39,132 nt of DNA, from NCBI GenBank assembly GCA_944325935.1, contig CALVCF010000003.1:1-39132 (forward strand), given 5' to 3'. The notes under the pieces are model-generated. The model did no database searches and was not told the DNA's origin. It saw only the letters and a list, made by a program, of their open reading frames with translations. A program made the translations under genes and the position numbers. The DNA comes from an uncultured Erysipelotrichaceae bacterium. Its GTDB lineage: Bacteria; Bacillota_I; Bacilli_A; Erysipelotrichales; Erysipelotrichaceae. Numbering within the stretch: the first letter of the stretch is position 1; each line of letters opens with the position of its first letter. Shown here in pieces: positions 3,786 through 11,856 of this stretch.

Positions 3786-4862
3786 ATGTTTATTGTGATT
3801 TTTATTTTATTTATCTTATTGTTGTCAGCGATTATTGTGGTCCACGAATTCGGTCACTTGATCGCAGCTAAAGTTTTTAAAGTATATTGCCCTGAGTTTT
3901 CGATCGGTATGGGTCCAAAACTTTGTTCATTTAAGGGCAAAGAGACTGAGTATTGCTTAAGAGCTTTGCCTGTCGGCGGCTTTGTGGCGATGGCTGGTGA
4001 TACCGACAATAGTTTAGAGACCAGCGTTGATACGACTAATATCCCCTTTGAAAGAACCTTGCCTGGGATCGCTAAATGGAAAAGAGCGATCATTATGATG
4101 GCAGGGGTCATTATGAATATGGTCTTAGCAGTCGTGATCGTGGCCTTAGTCCTTTTATACAATGGTTCTTATGCTGTTTCACCCGAACCTTTGATCGGTG
4201 CTGTGCAAGAGAATACCCCTGCTTATCGTGCCGGTTTAAAACAGGGCGATCTTATTACTAGGTTGGAGTATCAGGATCTTGGTATCAGCTCCGAGCCCAA
4301 GACTTTTGATGATATCGGTACTTTTACATACGGTCATGAAAACGAAGTCCTAACAATCACCGTAGAGCGCGATGGGGAAAGTTTGAGCTTTGATCTTCAG
4401 GCCGAGTTTAATGAAGAAAGCAATTCTTATCTTATCGGCATCAGTTCGCCTGGTCTTAAGGCCATCAGTATCAATCTTTTCAATTGCTGGTATTATGCGA
4501 TCGATTATTTATGGTATGTAGTCAGAACGATCTTCATGTCTTTAGGTCAGCTCTTGAAAGGGGTCGGTCTTGAAAATCTTTCCGGTCCGGTTGGGATTTA
4601 TCAGGCGACCGAAGAAGCCATCAACATGGGCGCTCAATCTTATATCCTCATGATCGCCGTGCTGTCGGTCAATGTTGGCATCATCAACGCTTTGCCATTA
4701 CCTATTTTAGACGGCGGCAGGGTCTTGATCTTGATCATTGAGGCGCTTATTGGAAGGCCGCTTTCCGAAAAGGCGATCTCATATTTGATGGGCGTATCAC
4801 TTTTTTTGATCTTGGCTTTATTTGTCTTTGCGACATATCAGGATATATTGCGACTACTTTAA
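3786..4862 (+). CDS. rseP: Site-2 intramembrane zinc metalloprotease RseP
   Basis: Membrane protease of the S2P/M50 family that cleaves transmembrane substrates such as anti-sigma factors and remnant signal peptides. HEFGH at residues 20-24 in the first membrane helix provides the zinc-binding His pair and catalytic Glu; the third ligand is the Asp of PLPILDGGR near residue 309. A PDZ domain occupies roughly residues 130-200 (ENTPAYRAGLKQGDLI). The length of 358 residues is normal for Gram-positive members. GGAGA lies 9 bases before the ATG, inside the preceding gene. RseP genes of Firmicutes often sit beside dxr, cdsA or proS; here the neighbours are a GNAT gene and galE, so the usual context is lost. 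Confidence 0.95.
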   Translation: MFIVIFILFILLLSAIIVVHEFGHLIAAKVFKVYCPEFSIGMGPKLCSFKGKETEYCLRALPVGGFVAMAGDTDNSLETSVDTTNIPFERTLPGIAKWKRAIIMMAGVIMNMVLAVVIVALVLLYNGSYAVSPEPLIGAVQENTPAYRAGLKQGDLITRLEYQDLGISSEPKTFDDIGTFTYGHENEVLTITVERDGESLSFDLQAEFNEESNSYLIGISSPGLKAISINLFNCWYYAIDYLWYVVRTIFMSLGQLLKGVGLENLSGPVGIYQATEEAINMGAQSYILMIAVLSVNVGIINALPLPILDGGRVLILIIEALIGRPLSEKAISYLMGVSLFLILALFVFATYQDILRLL

Positions 4863-4871
4863 GGAGGAACT

Positions 4872-5888
4872 ATGCGTATCTTAGTTACAGGAGGCTTGGG
4901 CTACATAGGCTCGCACACCGTCGTTGAACTTTTAGCAAATGATTACGATGTAAGCATTGTCGACAATCTCTACAATTCCAACATCCATGTCTTGGACCGG
5001 ATCGAAAAATTAACAAGTAAAAGCGCGACCTTTTACCAAGTTGACATCTTAGACAAGGAAGCATTAGAGAAAGTATTTCAAAAAGAACATTTTGATGCCG
5101 TTATTCATTTTGCGGGCTATAAGGCAGTCGGCGAGTCAGTGGCTATTCCCTTGACTTATTATCAGAATAATATCGCTGGCAGCTTGAACCTATATGAGCT
5201 CATGCATAAGTACGGGGTGGAAAAGATCGTCTTTTCCTCAAGTGCGACGGTCTACGGCGATGATTTTGCCGTTCCTTTTAAGGAAGAATACGGCCTTGGC
5301 ACAACTACCAATCCCTATGGAACAACTAAGAAATTCAACGAGATCATCTTAAGCGATCTTGCGAAAGCTAAACAAATAGGATCAGCGATCTTACTTAGAT
5401 ATTTTAATCCGATCGGCGCCCATGAAAGCGGATTGTTAGGTGAAGTACCCAATGGCATCCCCAACAATCTTGTACCTTATATTGCCAGAGTTGCCAGTGG
5501 TAAACTTGACAAATTACGAGTCTTTGGCAACGACTATGATACGATCGATGGTACAGGTGTGCGCGACTACATCCATGTGGTCGATTTAGCAAAGGCCCAT
5601 GTCTTAGCTTTAGACTATAGCTTTAAGCATGAAGGGGTCGAGGTGTTTAATATCGGCACAGGAAAGGGTTACAGTGTTCTTGAAGTATTGCATGCTTATG
5701 AAAGGGCATGCCAAAAAAAACTTCCTTATGAAATCGTTGCAAGAAGGCCGGGCGATATCGCTTCATGTTTTGCAGATTGTTCCAAAGCTCAAGCATTACT
5801 GGGCTTTAAGGCACAATATGATATCGATAAAATGTGTGAAGATTCCTATCGGTTCACGGTTATGAACCCGGATGGTATCGATAAATAA
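4872..5888 (+). CDS. galE: UDP-glucose 4-epimerase
   Basis: Extended short-chain dehydrogenase that interconverts UDP-glucose and UDP-galactose through an NAD-bound 4-keto intermediate, supplying galactose for envelope polymers or feeding the Leloir pathway. GGLGYIGSH at residues 7-15 is the NAD-binding Rossmann motif; SSSATVYG supplies the catalytic Ser/Thr, and the YxxxK pair is Tyr149/Lys153 in NPYGTTKK. ILLRYFNPIGAH and GTGVRDYIHV are GalE signatures. The length of 338 residues is typical. AAGGAGG lies 5 bases before ATG and only 9 bases separate it from rseP, so it is in that transcript. No other galactose genes are nearby and no clear terminator follows. Confidence 0.96.
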   Translation: MRILVTGGLGYIGSHTVVELLANDYDVSIVDNLYNSNIHVLDRIEKLTSKSATFYQVDILDKEALEKVFQKEHFDAVIHFAGYKAVGESVAIPLTYYQNNIAGSLNLYELMHKYGVEKIVFSSSATVYGDDFAVPFKEEYGLGTTTNPYGTTKKFNEIILSDLAKAKQIGSAILLRYFNPIGAHESGLLGEVPNGIPNNLVPYIARVASGKLDKLRVFGNDYDTIDGTGVRDYIHVVDLAKAHVLALDYSFKHEGVEVFNIGTGKGYSVLEVLHAYERACQKKLPYEIVARRPGDIASCFADCSKAQALLGFKAQYDIDKMCEDSYRFTVMNPDGIDK

Positions 5889-5942
5889 AACGATAAATTT
5901 AAATTAAAATAAAAATATAAAAAATTATAGAAATAAAATGTG

Positions 5943-5990
5943 AAATTTAGTGATAAATTTATTGATTAATAGATCGTTTTCTTCTATAAT
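5943..5990 (+). promoter_or_regulatory. Promoter with adjacent AT palindrome ahead of the Phd-led operon
   Basis: TTGATT (5962-5967) and TATAAT (5985-5990) are separated by exactly 17 bases. Immediately upstream, AAATTTA (5943-5949) and TAAATTT (5954-5960) form a perfect 7-bp inverted repeat around GTGA. The placement suits an operator, possibly for the Phd-like protein made from this transcript, since that family commonly autoregulates by binding palindromes. The operator role is inferred. Confidence 0.7.
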
Positions 5991-6010
5991 TTTTTTATGG
6001 AGAAAAACTA

Positions 6011-6238
6011 ATGAAAAAAAGTCGATTAGCGATCAGTTTAGATTCACTAGTACCAATCAGCAGCCTCAATCAGGGAAAGGCTGCTAAGATTATTGGTGAA
6101 TTGGCGGATGAAGACATTAAGATCGTCATCAAGAATAACGAACCGATAGCGGCAATTCTCTCGATGGCGCGCTTGAATCAATTGATCGACGAAGAATATG
6201 AATTAAAAGCGAAATTAGAGAAAGAGGTGAGCCTATGA
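6011..6238 (+). CDS. Phd/YefM-family antitoxin-like protein, no partner toxin
   Basis: Seventy-five residues resembling the Phd/YefM antitoxin fold: a short N-terminal strand with SLVPISSLNQGKAAKII, then DIKIVIKNNEPIAAILSMARLNQLID, which is the typical 'nnepvavlls...y..l' block, and a charged helix at the end. Classical members bind operator DNA through the N-terminal part and neutralise a RelE/Doc/VapC toxin with the C-terminal tail. Here the next gene, overlapping by ATGA, encodes a membrane protein and not a toxin. GGAG lies 8 bases before the ATG. It is likely the autoregulator or a regulator of the wall operon it heads. Family assignment is fairly sure; role is inferred. Confidence 0.75.
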   Translation: MKKSRLAISLDSLVPISSLNQGKAAKIIGELADEDIKIVIKNNEPIAAILSMARLNQLIDEEYELKAKLEKEVSL

Positions 6239-7164
6239 GACGTAAAGTTAATTGGCGTAATCTCCTTTTGATATTTTCAGCAATCATCCTAATGGTGTTG
6301 CTGGCTTTTTTCTTGATCTCTTTTATTAGTTCGCGCTTTGAAGATACCAAAGAGAATAATCTTGGCGAAGTAGAATCTGTCTCTAATTTTACAGTGGATC
6401 TTGTGGATTACGAAGTTTTTAAGACGCAAGAAGAATTTGATTTTGATTTTGTAGTGGCAAGACTGCGCTTCCGTGACCAAGAGCCTGTTAGTTATGATCT
6501 CAAAGATATGTATACCGATGAGGGTCTTAAGCTTTCTGAGATCGATAAATATGTCAGTGCCCTGGAAGAGAAGCATTATTATTTAGGGCGTCTTAATGTC
6601 GTCTATGAAATAAGCAGTGAAGAAAACAGTGCAACTTACGCCATCTTTATTCCTTATGATGATAAAGATAAAGATTCCTTGACTCTGTATGATGCCTTAA
6701 GCAAAGAAGAGATCACGATCGATCTTGATAAAAATCAAAAGGAACTGGCAAGTCTTGAGTATTCTACGGGTTCGGATATTGAGGTCAATGATATAAAGGC
6801 CAGTATTTCTGATAGTTTTATCTCGACCACCATTTATCAAGATGGCCAGTCTTACAGCTATCCCGAATCAGTCAAGATCTATAGTTTTGAACTTTCGATC
6901 AATAATGTCTTAGAAGAAGGTATTATGATCGAAGATGCTTACATCTTATTGGCAAACGGCGAAGAGATCCACGCCTTGGATGATAGTTATACTTCTATGA
7001 AGCATAACAATATGATAAACCGTGAATTAACTGACGGTGAAACAGGTTGTCTATTCTTTGAAATGTTCGCTTTAGATGATAACAGCGACCATAATGCAGA
7101 TCTATATATCAAATTTAGCAATAGTGAAGATTGGCTAATGCTTAGAACGGAGTTGGCGGAATGA
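6235..7164 (+). CDS. Membrane-anchored extracytoplasmic protein of unknown function
   Basis: I do not recognise this gene by name. The 309-residue product has a basic start (MRRKVNWR), one strong membrane helix at about residues 10-31, and an acidic, beta-rich outer part with no cysteine-based lipobox. Two similar segments, around residues 45-155 and 180-305, alternate hydrophobic strands with acidic turns and recall DUF4352-type immunoglobulin-like domains, though that is only a resemblance. It overlaps both neighbours by ATGA (6235-6238 and 7161-7164), so it is translationally coupled to the Phd-like gene and to the glucosaminidase, and probably works at the wall with the latter. Confidence 0.7.
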   Translation: MRRKVNWRNLLLIFSAIILMVLLAFFLISFISSRFEDTKENNLGEVESVSNFTVDLVDYEVFKTQEEFDFDFVVARLRFRDQEPVSYDLKDMYTDEGLKLSEIDKYVSALEEKHYYLGRLNVVYEISSEENSATYAIFIPYDDKDKDSLTLYDALSKEEITIDLDKNQKELASLEYSTGSDIEVNDIKASISDSFISTTIYQDGQSYSYPESVKIYSFELSINNVLEEGIMIEDAYILLANGEEIHALDDSYTSMKHNNMINRELTDGETGCLFFEMFALDDNSDHNADLYIKFSNSEDWLMLRTELAE

Positions 7165-9722
7165 AGAAGGTTTTAATTTTAATCATAATGGTGATGTTGA
7201 TCGGCACGGGTGCTCTATGTGCTAATCCCACCACCATCGAGGCAAAAGAATATTACAGCTATTCATGCGGTGATCAATTCGAACTGTCCTATATCACTGA
7301 CGATGGTCAATTTCAAAAAGACAGTTGTTATGTCTCTTTTGATGATGCCCTAAAGGCAATGAACAAAAAAGGCAGTGAATATGTCGTTCGCCATAATAAG
7401 TCTTTATCGCCAACTAAGATCATTGCGATGGTTTCGGGCAATGCTTATTCATATCCCGCCCGCAGCGGTCATATTACTATGAATGTTTTTGATAGCGATA
7501 AGTATAATCATAACACTATTACTTATCTTACTAATCACTATGAAATGCGCTATGAGGGGACGACTGTTTATTTGACCAGCGATAACAACTATGGCGGTAT
7601 TGCCGGAGGAGGAATGATCAAAGTATCCTTTGATGGTTTTGAAGGATATGCCGATCTAGAATATACTGATCTTGTACCCGATAAGTTTATCGATAATGGT
7701 TTACCGATCTATCTAGGCGGTAACGACAAGACAAATGAAAACGAGCAACCTTTCTTAGTAAAGGTTTTAAGAAGTTATTATACCGTAGAACAAAACGGCA
7801 ATTATAAAGATCTCGTCTTTTATAATATGCGTGCCTATCCGACTCAAAATGGGCAAGATGGCAACCCCTCGTTCCAAGAGCGTTATATCATTGGACCAGC
7901 GCCCAGTGAGATGAAAACAGGTACAAAGTATTACAGCTATGACGGTCATAATTACTACAGTGATTACAAATGCCAGAATCATGTGGTCGACTATTATAAT
8001 TATTATCAATACTTGCCTTTAAGATCCAAGACCGAAATATCAGCCAGCGATCTTAATGCGTTTTTGATCGATATAAAGGGCTCAAGTACTTCATCGGTCA
8101 TCAAGAATAAGGGTCAGGCCTTTATTGACGCTCAAAACGAGTACGGAGTCAATGCCTTGCTATTGTATGCGATGGCTTGTCACGAAAGTAACTATGGTAC
8201 TTCGCCTATCGCTTTAAACTACAATAACCTTTTTGGTTGGAATGCGGTTGACTCAGATCCTGGCAATGCTTCATATTACAGTAGCGTTGAAGCCTGTATC
8301 GACCAGCATGCGGGACGTAATCTAAAAGGCTATCTCGATCTGACGGACTATCGTTTCTTTGGTTCGCATCTTGGCAATAAAGGTTCTGGCTTTAATGTAA
8401 AATATGCCAGCGACCCATATTGGGGAATGGGTATTGCCTCCCTTGCTTATCAAATCGATAAATTCGCCAACGATTATGATGGGACCTTAAGTGATTATGG
8501 AAGCTATGATCTAGCAATCGTTGACAAAGGTACAGCTTTTCTAGACAGTCCCTCAAGCTCTGGCAAAACCTATGACACAGCCTTATTTGGTGTCAGCTCT
8601 TATTTCACGACCCTTACTGTTATTCCTCTTGAAGTAAGCGGTAATTATGTTAAAGTCCAGTTCACAAGTCCTATCATCAATTCGAAAGTCGACACATCAA
8701 GCACGATGAATAGTTATGATTTCAGTGCCAGTGTAGCCTATGTTGATTCTAGCAAGCTGCATATGATCAATGGTGCAGATATGAGTGATAATAATCAGGA
8801 TGATTCTACTGATAGCAGACAGGTCATGTCGATTAGCGATATGACGCTTGATGCCGATGGCAAACTAAAAGTTGCAGGAACAGCCTTTATGTCACATTAT
8901 AACTATTCAGATAGTTCTAAGATCTCGCATGAGCTCATGATTTATTCATTAGAAGATAATCAGGTTGTTGAATCATATTCATTAAATACTCTTGATTCAA
9001 ATGGCATATCTTTAAATGACGGGTTTGAGTATGATTACGTCAATTTTGAGGGCACCATCGACCTAGCCGATCTTCCTTATGGAAATTATATTATGAAGGT
9101 CAAAGTTTCCAATGGCGATAATGTTCATGAGATTCAAGTAGCTACGACTAGCCTTAAGTATCATGGCCAATACCAAGTATCTGGCAATGATTCTTATCTG
9201 TTGCATATCAATCAACAATATCGGTCACGAATAGAGATCAGCAAGACAGCACCTTTATTTGATTATGATAGTGTTAATAAGCCATCTAAGCTTAATTCTT
9301 TATTATCGATCAATACGCTCGGCATCGAAAACAACACTATGGTTCTTGAAGGTATCGGTTATATGTTATTCACGGACTTTGGTAAAGAAAACAATGTTTC
9401 ATTCAGCTTTTATTTAGTCTCGAACGATGGTCAAAAATATGAATTTACTAATCAAGAAGTAACAAATTATTTAGACTATACAGATATCTTAAAAACCGGA
9501 TATGATTTAAGTGACGTATGTTATAACACGAGTATTGATTTATCTAACATAGAAGATGGAACATATTATATTGCGGCCGAAATAAGGACGAATCAATATT
9601 ATGATGTAGTCTATCTGGTTGATAGACAGCAACGTGATTATGATGCAGTGAATATTGCCGGTAAGACGATGCAACTTGATACGTCAAATGACCGTGATCG
9701 GGTCGTATTATATGTAGAGTAG
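7161..9722 (+). CDS. Secreted N-acetylglucosaminidase (autolysin)
   Basis: An 853-residue exported peptidoglycan hydrolase. Residues 1-30 form a signal peptide (MKKVLILIIMVMLIGTGALC). A GH73/lysozyme-like glucosaminidase domain lies at about residues 290-430: ALLLYAMACHESNYGTS with predicted catalytic Glu342, then NNLFGWNAVD and YWGMGIASLAYQIDKFA. The region before it is a wall-binding-like beta segment, followed by an SH3-like part (around 450-520) and beta-rich domains to the end. Such enzymes cut the GlcNAc-MurNAc bond during growth or separation. It overlaps the preceding gene by 4 bases and lies 9 bases before the PASTA gene. It is longer than typical autolysins because of the C-terminal half, which I cannot assign. 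Confidence 0.88.
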   Translation: MKKVLILIIMVMLIGTGALCANPTTIEAKEYYSYSCGDQFELSYITDDGQFQKDSCYVSFDDALKAMNKKGSEYVVRHNKSLSPTKIIAMVSGNAYSYPARSGHITMNVFDSDKYNHNTITYLTNHYEMRYEGTTVYLTSDNNYGGIAGGGMIKVSFDGFEGYADLEYTDLVPDKFIDNGLPIYLGGNDKTNENEQPFLVKVLRSYYTVEQNGNYKDLVFYNMRAYPTQNGQDGNPSFQERYIIGPAPSEMKTGTKYYSYDGHNYYSDYKCQNHVVDYYNYYQYLPLRSKTEISASDLNAFLIDIKGSSTSSVIKNKGQAFIDAQNEYGVNALLLYAMACHESNYGTSPIALNYNNLFGWNAVDSDPGNASYYSSVEACIDQHAGRNLKGYLDLTDYRFFGSHLGNKGSGFNVKYASDPYWGMGIASLAYQIDKFANDYDGTLSDYGSYDLAIVDKGTAFLDSPSSSGKTYDTALFGVSSYFTTLTVIPLEVSGNYVKVQFTSPIINSKVDTSSTMNSYDFSASVAYVDSSKLHMINGADMSDNNQDDSTDSRQVMSISDMTLDADGKLKVAGTAFMSHYNYSDSSKISHELMIYSLEDNQVVESYSLNTLDSNGISLNDGFEYDYVNFEGTIDLADLPYGNYIMKVKVSNGDNVHEIQVATTSLKYHGQYQVSGNDSYLLHINQQYRSRIEISKTAPLFDYDSVNKPSKLNSLLSINTLGIENNTMVLEGIGYMLFTDFGKENNVSFSFYLVSNDGQKYEFTNQEVTNYLDYTDILKTGYDLSDVCYNTSIDLSNIEDGTYYIAAEIRTNQYYDVVYLVDRQQRDYDAVNIAGKTMQLDTSNDRDRVVLYVE

Positions 9723-9731
9723 GAGTTTTAG

Positions 9732-11330
9732 ATGAATAAATTAAAGAAGATTTTTAAAGCGATCGTACAAGATAAAATGATCTTAGCCTTATGCGCATTA
9801 TTGTTAGTAATCTTAGTAGTGATTGCTGGTATGGGAATTTATAGTTTAGTAGGAAATTTGCGTATCAAAGCAGAGGATTTCAGCGCTTTAAAGGAAGATG
9901 AAGTTGTTGCATGGTATGAAGATAAGTTTGGATCACGTGATGGATTGACGATTCAAAGAGAATACAGTGAAGAGGTAGAATTAGATTTTGTTATCTCGCA
10001 GGATCCTCAAGCTGGTGAAGTAATCAGCGATGGTTTAACGATCGTTATCTCGAATGGAGCAGATCCAGAGGTTGAATTTGAACTACCTGATTTTGTAAAA
10101 GAGGGTTATACAAAAGAAGAGATCGAAAAATATTTTAGCGATAATAAGTTCTTGGATGTAACTTATGAGTACGAAGTCTCGGATGAGCCAAAGGATACAG
10201 TTATTGATGTCAGTGTTTCTGGTACTGTTAAAAGAGGTGACCCGATTGTCGTTACAGTCTCGGCTGGTGATGATCTAAGTGTGATCGAGGCTGAAGTTCC
10301 CGATCTTACTACTTATACAGAAGCTAATGCGAAGGCCTGGGCCAGTTCCAACGCTATCAATTTAGATATAGAGTATGTTTTTGACGAAAGCGCGAAGGGG
10401 ACAATTTTGTCGCAAGATACCGCAAAAGGAACTATCGTTCATGGTGGTGATACGATCAAGATCACCGTTTCTCAAGGCGAGGGTGTAAGCTTACCCAACG
10501 TCGTCGGTCAAAGCCGTAATAGCGCGCGTAATACATTAAATCAGGAAGGTTTGAAAGTTTCGATTAAAGAAGCTTACTCTTCTAGCGTTAAAGAAGGTAA
10601 TGTTATCTCGATGTCGCCCCGTTCTGGGACAAGAGTAGTCGAGGGTTCTACGGTTACCTTGACCATCTCTTTGGGCCCGGATCCATCAACGATCTATGTT
10701 GATATTGATGAAAGTTATGTTGGTAAAAGTGTTAGTTCTTTTAATTCCTATATCAAAAATCTTGGCTTTCTGAATGAACCAACCAGAAGCGGTAGCTATT
10801 ATAGTGATAGTGTTGATGAAGGGAAGATCTTATCTCATACGACTGGTTCAAAGAGTCTAACTAGCAAAATCACATATGAATTATCATTAGGAAGCTATTC
10901 TTTGAATGCTTCTGATTTTAATGGTCTATCTCAAAGAGCTGCACAAAGCGTTATTGATGATGCCAACAGCCGGCGTGCCAATGTATCTTTAAAGGTTAAC
11001 CGTGATCCAAGCCAAGAATATACCGGAACTCTAAGTGCATGTAGTGTAAGCGGAAAGACTGTAACATGTACGTTGGCATCAGGTTCATATATAATGACCG
11101 GTTATGACTTGTATATTGACTGGGATAATCCTGTTACGCCAGAAAATACTGCAGCTAATGTCAGAAGAATCCTAGGCAATTTTGAAAATTTAAGTATCGT
11201 ATATGGCAGCAATCAAGACACAAGTCCAGGTTATATCCTCTCTATTTCTGTTAATGGCAGCACCCAATTCAGTTATGGTATGTATGATATTTCAACAACT
11301 AGCATTACAGTGGTGATCGACAATGACTAA
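9732..11330 (+). CDS. Stand-alone PASTA-domain membrane protein
   Basis: A 532-residue protein with a short cytoplasmic start, one membrane helix at about residues 16-38, and an outer part made mainly of PASTA repeats. Successive units read as 'xxxPDxxx-sxxxAxxxxxxxxlxxxxxxxxSxxxxGxVixxxPxxGxxvxxGxxVxxxVSxG': clear copies at about 110-178, 178-250 (EVPDLTTYTEANAKAW) and 250-320 (LPNVVGQSRNSARNTLNQEG), with degenerate ones at both ends. PASTA domains bind muropeptides and lipid II. They usually belong to PrkC/Stk1 kinases or penicillin-binding proteins, but neither domain is present here. Probably a wall sensor or scaffold working with the neighbouring glucosaminidase. A GGAG site precedes ATG. 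Confidence 0.9.
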   Translation: MNKLKKIFKAIVQDKMILALCALLLVILVVIAGMGIYSLVGNLRIKAEDFSALKEDEVVAWYEDKFGSRDGLTIQREYSEEVELDFVISQDPQAGEVISDGLTIVISNGADPEVEFELPDFVKEGYTKEEIEKYFSDNKFLDVTYEYEVSDEPKDTVIDVSVSGTVKRGDPIVVTVSAGDDLSVIEAEVPDLTTYTEANAKAWASSNAINLDIEYVFDESAKGTILSQDTAKGTIVHGGDTIKITVSQGEGVSLPNVVGQSRNSARNTLNQEGLKVSIKEAYSSSVKEGNVISMSPRSGTRVVEGSTVTLTISLGPDPSTIYVDIDESYVGKSVSSFNSYIKNLGFLNEPTRSGSYYSDSVDEGKILSHTTGSKSLTSKITYELSLGSYSLNASDFNGLSQRAAQSVIDDANSRRANVSLKVNRDPSQEYTGTLSACSVSGKTVTCTLASGSYIMTGYDLYIDWDNPVTPENTAANVRRILGNFENLSIVYGSNQDTSPGYILSISVNGSTQFSYGMYDISTTSITVVIDND

Positions 11331-11856
11331 TCGTGTATTGATGGATGCGGATATGATGTCGCGTTCAATTAAAAGAATTGCGCATGAGATATTGGAACGC
11401 AATAAAGGCGCCAATGATCTAGTATTAGTCGGCATCAAATCTAGAGGCGAAGTCTTGGCTAAGAGACTTCACGATCATATTCTAAATATCGAGGGCGTCG
11501 ATGTCGTTACCTTGAGTATGGATTTTTCGCCTTGGCGTGATGACAAGGAATCAAAAGATTATATCATTCCTCCTACACCTTATGATTTTACCGATAAGAT
11601 CGTTGTTTTATGTGATGATGTCTTGTATCGGGGAAGGACCGTGCGTTCAGCGATGGACGGGATCATGCACTATGGTCGGGCTAAGATGATTGAACTGGCA
11701 ATCTTGGTTGATCGTGGACATCGACAGCTACCGATCAAAGCGGATTTTGTCGGAAAGAATATTCCAACAAGCGAAAGCGAAGATATTGCAGTGCATTTTG
11801 TGGAATATGACAATATTGATGAAGTCATCATTAATCGTAAGGAAGAAGCGTATTGA
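11323..11856 (+). CDS. pyrR: PyrR, pyrimidine regulator and uracil phosphoribosyltransferase
   Basis: A 177-residue type I phosphoribosyltransferase. The PRPP-binding loop is IVVLCDDVLYRGRTVRSA near residues 91-108; VLVGIKSRGEVLAKRL and ELAILVDRGHRQLPIKADFVGKNIPTS are PyrR signatures. In Firmicutes PyrR binds pyr mRNA when UMP is bound and promotes attenuation, and it also makes UMP from uracil and PRPP. Its start overlaps the end of the PASTA gene by 8 bases, so it is the last gene of the wall operon rather than the first gene of a pyr operon, an unusual context. Uracil could come from the PsuG reaction encoded nearby. A terminator fused to its stop codon ends the unit. Confidence 0.95.
   Translation: MTNRVLMDADMMSRSIKRIAHEILERNKGANDLVLVGIKSRGEVLAKRLHDHILNIEGVDVVTLSMDFSPWRDDKESKDYIIPPTPYDFTDKIVVLCDDVLYRGRTVRSAMDGIMHYGRAKMIELAILVDRGHRQLPIKADFVGKNIPTSESEDIAVHFVEYDNIDEVIINRKEEAY

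Follow-up and report, generated by a model that had tools for sequence, protein, structure and literature searches.

The E. coli YefM operator contains two palindromes 12 bp apart, centre to centre, and this spacing is essential for cooperative binding (reviewed in PMC4803016). Many antitoxin genes stand without a toxin, and Makarova 2009 proposed that such solo antitoxins may act as regulators of diverse operons, a conversion which has seldom been detailed (PMC2701414). We analysed a 39,132-nucleotide stretch of DNA from an uncultured Erysipelotrichaceae bacterium (hereafter the window), in which an antitoxin-like phd gene precedes a set of cell-wall genes. This locus is a concrete and unusually well-marked instance of the solo-antitoxin proposal, in that it offers an operator, a target and an evolutionary polarity.

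Organization of the locus and its proteins

Sequence and ORF positions define a wall-gene unit, entirely on the forward strand, in the order phd (6011-6238, 75 amino acids), m309 (6235-7164), a gene for a secreted GH73 N-acetylglucosaminidase (7161-9722, 853 amino acids; PF01832, E=5e-16), a gene for a membrane PASTA-repeat protein without a kinase domain (9732-11330; PF03793, E=7e-42, five stretches) and pyrR (11323-11856; NCBIfam PyrR models with E down to 4.5e-61, above the NF003549 cut-off). On the same strand rseP (3786-4862) and galE (4872-5888) form the upstream flank, galE being the 5' border of the insertion point and an upstream neighbour conserved in relatives. The Shine-Dalgarno sequence GGAG of phd lies at 5999-6002. 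ATGA overlaps join phd to m309 and m309 to the GH73 gene, the GH73 and PASTA genes are 9 bp apart, and the PASTA gene overlaps pyrR by 8 bp. An earlier interpretation made from the letters of the window alone (the sequence-only reading) had described a 75-residue Phd-like protein at the head of a coupled wall unit with no toxin nearby, and all of its genes and ATGA overlaps are indeed present. Neither in the window nor in its relatives is there a toxin gene between galE (end 5888) and m309, there being no candidate and no room between galE and phd or between phd and m309; the adjoining cognate toxin gene that marks a type II toxin-antitoxin (TA) system is therefore absent from all of them.

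The Phd-like protein matches Pfam PF02604 weakly, scoring 17.3 bits (E=0.004) where the cut-off is 29.8, and 22 of the 23 members of its alignment match the same family at E<0.1. A sequence search of the PDB with this protein returned nothing useful. Its AF2 model (pLDDT 86.9) has its elements in the Phd/YefM order, and the best structural matches in the PDB are the RelB2, PfiA, YefM and Phd antitoxins, with probabilities near 1 and E of 0.02-0.1. The model thus points to a Phd/YefM N-terminal fold, with a match that is good, not overwhelming. The gene is under strong purifying selection: dN/dS was 0.024-0.078 in four pairs (synonymous sites being saturated in two further pairs), and for each of the four pairs that allowed both values to be computed it was below that of m309.

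No Pfam family matches m309 by sequence. Its AF2 model (pLDDT 86) predicts a short basic N-terminus, with only about 6-14 cytosolic residues, followed by one transmembrane helix and two extracellular Ig-like domains, for which the closest solved folds found by Foldseek after RbmA are those of B. subtilis YjhA (3cfu) and YxkC (9a4z). The latter entry is a YxkC-DacA model, DacA being a wall enzyme. Because of this YjhA/YxkC-like fold, and since YxkC has been modelled with DacA, the prediction points to m309 as an envelope partner of the glucosaminidase and not a toxin. The PASTA protein matches only the transmembrane and PASTA part of PknB models; a protein-kinase ORF of this genome (a frame of 584 amino acids) lies elsewhere, at C55. 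In some genera without phd a PASTA gene is found on the opposite strand after the wall genes.

Distribution of the solo phd gene and its relatives

Strong Phd matches (55-73% identity) occur directly 5' of m309 in four genera, labelled g1 (which includes the window), g3, g47 and g57; this was the outcome of the gene-neighbourhood comparison that the sequence-only reading had suggested. Among 84,980 species genomes scanned, Phd at that level was recovered in 23 MAGs of Erysipelotrichaceae or Solobacterium, the majority of them from rumen and gut. In a search across the order the solo Phd was found in 36 genomes, with 103-137 bits and in those four genera only (about 20 additional genomes being counted here on the Phd match alone), and all other full-length matches reached at most 64 bits. 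Wherever the contig is long enough, rseP-galE lies 5' and m309-GH73 lies 3' of phd (one contig, L151, ends within phd). The order rseP-galE-phd-m309-GH73-PASTA is conserved in four Erysipelotrichaceae genera; pyrR is a variable member present in some relatives only. A scan of viral contigs for an origin of this Phd gave no relative.

The wall genes themselves are more widespread. The m309 gene is present in 61 of 146 genomes of the family, it adjoins the GH73 gene in nearly every locus fetched, and about 20 genera of the family have the m309-GH73 pair and no Phd. In several of these phd-less genera the distance from galE to m309 is no more than about 20-110 bp, and in some galE is directly upstream. 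In the m309+GH73 tree the phd-bearing genera fall in one clade (support 0.985-1.0), which includes g19, the sister of g57 (0.97); both phd and the operator are absent from g19. The simplest reading of this history is one gain and one loss, the latter in g19. Wall genes without phd in related genomes had been named by the sequence-only reading as evidence against its proposal. Such genomes do exist outside the one clade, and within it in g19; they imply that Phd is dispensable for the wall genes, and they show a clade-specific gain, which is no argument against a regulatory role.

Outside the syntenic loci, the closest relatives of this Phd are 29-45% identical to it; most are antitoxins of 101-140 amino acids followed immediately by a toxin ORF of RelE/ParE-like or PIN/VapC-like type. 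Their hosts include Clostridium, Lachnospiraceae, Oscillospiraceae and others. In the alignment these TA relatives have a tail of about 45 residues with an acidic ...EVEIE end, which is missing from the window's Phd. P1 Phd, of about 73 residues, is about equally short yet binds a toxin, so that length alone cannot exclude toxin binding by the window's Phd. Two ordinary Phd-RelE/ParE-like TA pairs are also encoded in the window's genome (L001:1477-2088 and L002:1124-1707). Furthermore, there is a second toxin-less Phd family of about 71-86 amino acids, with the sequence ...FYNMSDFLRGQSSKIIT... (L055:1441-1665, L056:1405-1665 and L058:1477-1692), and in L055 and L056 an apparent type I restriction-modification hsdM gene lies directly 3' of it.

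An operator-like array at the phd promoter

A candidate sigma-70-type promoter on the forward strand at 5962-5990 matches the consensus, with a -35 box TTGATT (5962-5967), a 17-bp spacer and a -10 box TATAAT (5985-5990). Shuffles match the consensus as well with a probability of 0.145 for the window alone and of 0-0.005 in most g3 relatives. The promoters of g1 match the consensus weakly. The boxes lie at -35 and -12 from the start codon in g3, g57 and g47 (e.g. L130, L135 and L140), and in 20 of 22 loci examined from these genera and related loci the first base of the -10 hexamer lies 12 bases upstream of the (first) ATG. The phd transcript of these three genera is accordingly predicted to start at the ATG and to be leaderless; the g1 genes, that of the window included, have a short leader with GGAG. 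An inverted repeat (5919-5995, forward strand) surrounds the operator, its arms (5919-5937 and 5977-5995) being 89% complementary and the 3' arm holding the -10 box; hairpins around the phd promoter have a mean z of -2.8. In the window repeat as in those of relatives, the T-run that follows merges into the -10 region. In this hairpin a weak terminator of galE may have merged with the phd promoter, or the hairpin may be a mere consequence of nested palindromes.

The palindrome AAATTTA-GTGA-TAAATTT at 5943-5960, which the sequence-only reading had noticed to end 2 bases before the -35 box, is where that reading had placed it, and it goes beyond chance as part of an array with 12-bp spacing that is found across the clade and is otherwise absent from the genome (at most 3 mismatches). 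In the window the proximal array (5941-5974, no strand assigned) is built of units in 12-bp steps, one of which, the perfect palindrome ATAAATTTAT (5953-5962), overlaps the -35 box; a distal operator-like unit, ATAAATTTAA (5893-5902, one mismatch, likewise unstranded), lies 60 bp (5 x 12) 5' of the perfect unit. The upstream regions of phd generally have tandem ATAAATTTAT palindromes at exact 12-bp spacing that overlap the -35 box. Counting units with at most 2 mismatches to ATAAATTTAT in the 11 phd loci from which the unit was derived, we found 14 pairs at a distance of 12 against 0.61 +/- 0.81 expected from dinucleotide shuffles (maximum 5 in 300 shuffles); distances of 24 and 36 also gave peaks. 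The 12-bp step was found before it was compared with the YefM spacing. With the motif fixed beforehand, 15 further phd loci gave 19 pairs at 12 bp against 0.47 expected, a validation within the clade as these loci are mostly from the same genus or relatives of the first set. The array was not found in 27 phd-less m309 loci (Fisher p 0.97), and the g57 loci are weak for it (p 0.16-0.17). A palindromic operator-like array with a spacing of about 12 bp is thus a feature of phd's own promoter.

The same array accompanies the TA relatives. A tandem 22-mer, fixed beforehand, was significant 5' of 11 of 17 related Phd-toxin loci (p<0.05; Fisher 1e-12), with a 20/20 match in the TA operator of Clostridium sp. 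C2-6-12 and an 18/20 match in L149. Pairs at 12 bp numbered 9 in the TA loci against 0.17 expected, with an even-distance background as well, probably due to an AT repeat in L142. At three loci of the second toxin-less Phd family the array was not found (p 0.33-0.82). As the Phd protein is the sole element common to the clade and the TA loci, the array appears to belong to Phd and not to the wall genes, and is most likely Phd's operator. All array sites are AT-rich; chance AT-richness as their source is excluded by the dinucleotide shuffles, the phd-less loci and the TA loci. By eye, a 12-bp repeat of a different unit (ACGCAAAAATTG-like) lies 5' of a Phd-PIN pair (L061, 1465-2164) in genome G002, and such a different unit at equal spacing would keep the two Phd proteins of G002 apart.

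Genome-wide pattern searches for the tandem site ATAAATTTATNNATAAATTTAT with at most 3 mismatches placed it solely at 5941-5974 (2/2) in the 1.36-Mb genome of the window (G000). At the same threshold it is confined to the phd locus in G045 (4/4), G136 (4/4) and G093 (1/1). The best matches in G145, G060 and G002 are at the phd locus; G002, G047 and G044 have many chance sites with 3 mismatches, about as many as a control pattern. G116 has an extra strong site, which lies past an HU-like gene and its terminator in the gap between convergent genes and looks like chance.

A proposed autorepressor and its alternatives

We propose that the window's Phd is most probably a domesticated antitoxin that would bind DNA and repress the wall operon as a local autorepressor. 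The ancestor of a single Erysipelotrichaceae clade would have gained, between galE and m309-GH73, an ancestral Phd-RelE-type module complete with its promoter and operator. Thereafter the toxin gene would have been lost, as would the C-terminal tail with which the antitoxin binds toxin, the DNA-binding domain and operator being kept. Phd dimers would bind the 12-bp-spaced palindromes cooperatively, cover the -35 box and exclude RNA polymerase, so that negative autoregulation would keep expression of the phd-m309-GH73-PASTA(-pyrR) operon self-limited. The phd promoter may be one promoter of the downstream genes, not necessarily the sole one. Faster proteolysis of Phd, usual for antitoxins, would raise operon expression.

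The sequence-only reading had offered both the Phd fold as an autoregulator and the 309-residue membrane protein as a stand-in for the toxin. The former idea is well supported by the operator array that tracks Phd, the synteny, the purifying selection and the missing tail, binding being the inferred step; the latter did not stand. A non-canonical TA pair, in which Phd neutralises m309 or the glucosaminidase as a new toxin, could draw on the ATGA coupling, on the phd-m309 adjacency conserved in the phd-bearing loci inspected and on the fact that GH73 enzymes can be autolytic. It is nevertheless very unlikely: m309-GH73 does without Phd in its roughly 20 phd-less genera, galE being the immediate 5' neighbour in some of them; m309 exposes few residues to the cytosol, and its extracellular Ig-like domains resemble YjhA and YxkC, no toxin; the exported GH73 enzyme is beyond the reach of a cytosolic Phd; and the tail which contacts the toxin in relatives is absent.

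The missing tail also counts against an orphan antitoxin kept, as anti-addiction or by trans pairing, to counter a toxin from another locus, with the wall genes hitch-hiking behind its promoter. The other Phd-RelE-type pairs of the window's genome (L001 and L002) and the operator common to related Phd-RelE operons would fit such an arrangement, which we nonetheless regard as improbable: in four genera phd occupies a single conserved chromosomal place and is followed by the same genes, it is translationally coupled to m309, and the genome's other two Phd proteins look like a different subfamily. Phd-family proteins bind DNA and weaker single sites may exist, so a broader regulator with the wall operon as one of many targets might be envisaged; the restriction of the tandem site to the phd locus in G000, G045, G136 and G093, and the convergent position of the extra G116 site, leave this with scant probability. 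Returning to the autorepressor, it could be supposed that the entire TA circuit of antitoxin, cooperative operator and proteolysis has been put to new use, the toxin being replaced by an autolytic wall enzyme of the cell itself. This is a tentative extension which we consider rather doubtful; if true, wall remodelling or lysis would increase when the antitoxin decays under stress, and an addiction circuit would have become a stress-responsive wall control.

The case offers a gain placed on a clade, an apparently inherited operator common to living TA relatives, a missing tail and a defined target operon, with g19 as a natural loss lineage for comparison. With it, the path by which a selfish module becomes a housekeeping regulator can be tested directly, in poorly studied rumen and gut bacteria.

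Among known systems, the locus resembles E. coli YefM-YoeB in its Phd/YefM fold and in palindromes spaced 12 bp centre to centre that overlap the promoter (PMC4803016). Unlike YefM-YoeB, its core is AAATTT and not TGTACA, it has no toxin or co-repressor, and its target is wall genes. With the Phd-RelE-type TA operons of Clostridium, Lachnospiraceae and Oscillospiraceae (L142, L149, L143, L045, L046 and L049) it shares an antitoxin core that is 29-45% identical and the 12-bp-spaced ATAAATTTAT operator; in those operons, by contrast, a toxin gene follows directly and the antitoxin is longer, its C-terminal tail being acidic. The m309 domains share the predicted fold of the YjhA/YxkC-type Ig-like envelope proteins of B. 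subtilis (3cfu, 9a4z), unlike which m309 combines two domains with a transmembrane anchor. The idea of exaptation is common to the solo antitoxins discussed earlier (PMC2701414) and to this locus, where a specific conserved family, its target operon and its probable operator are identified.
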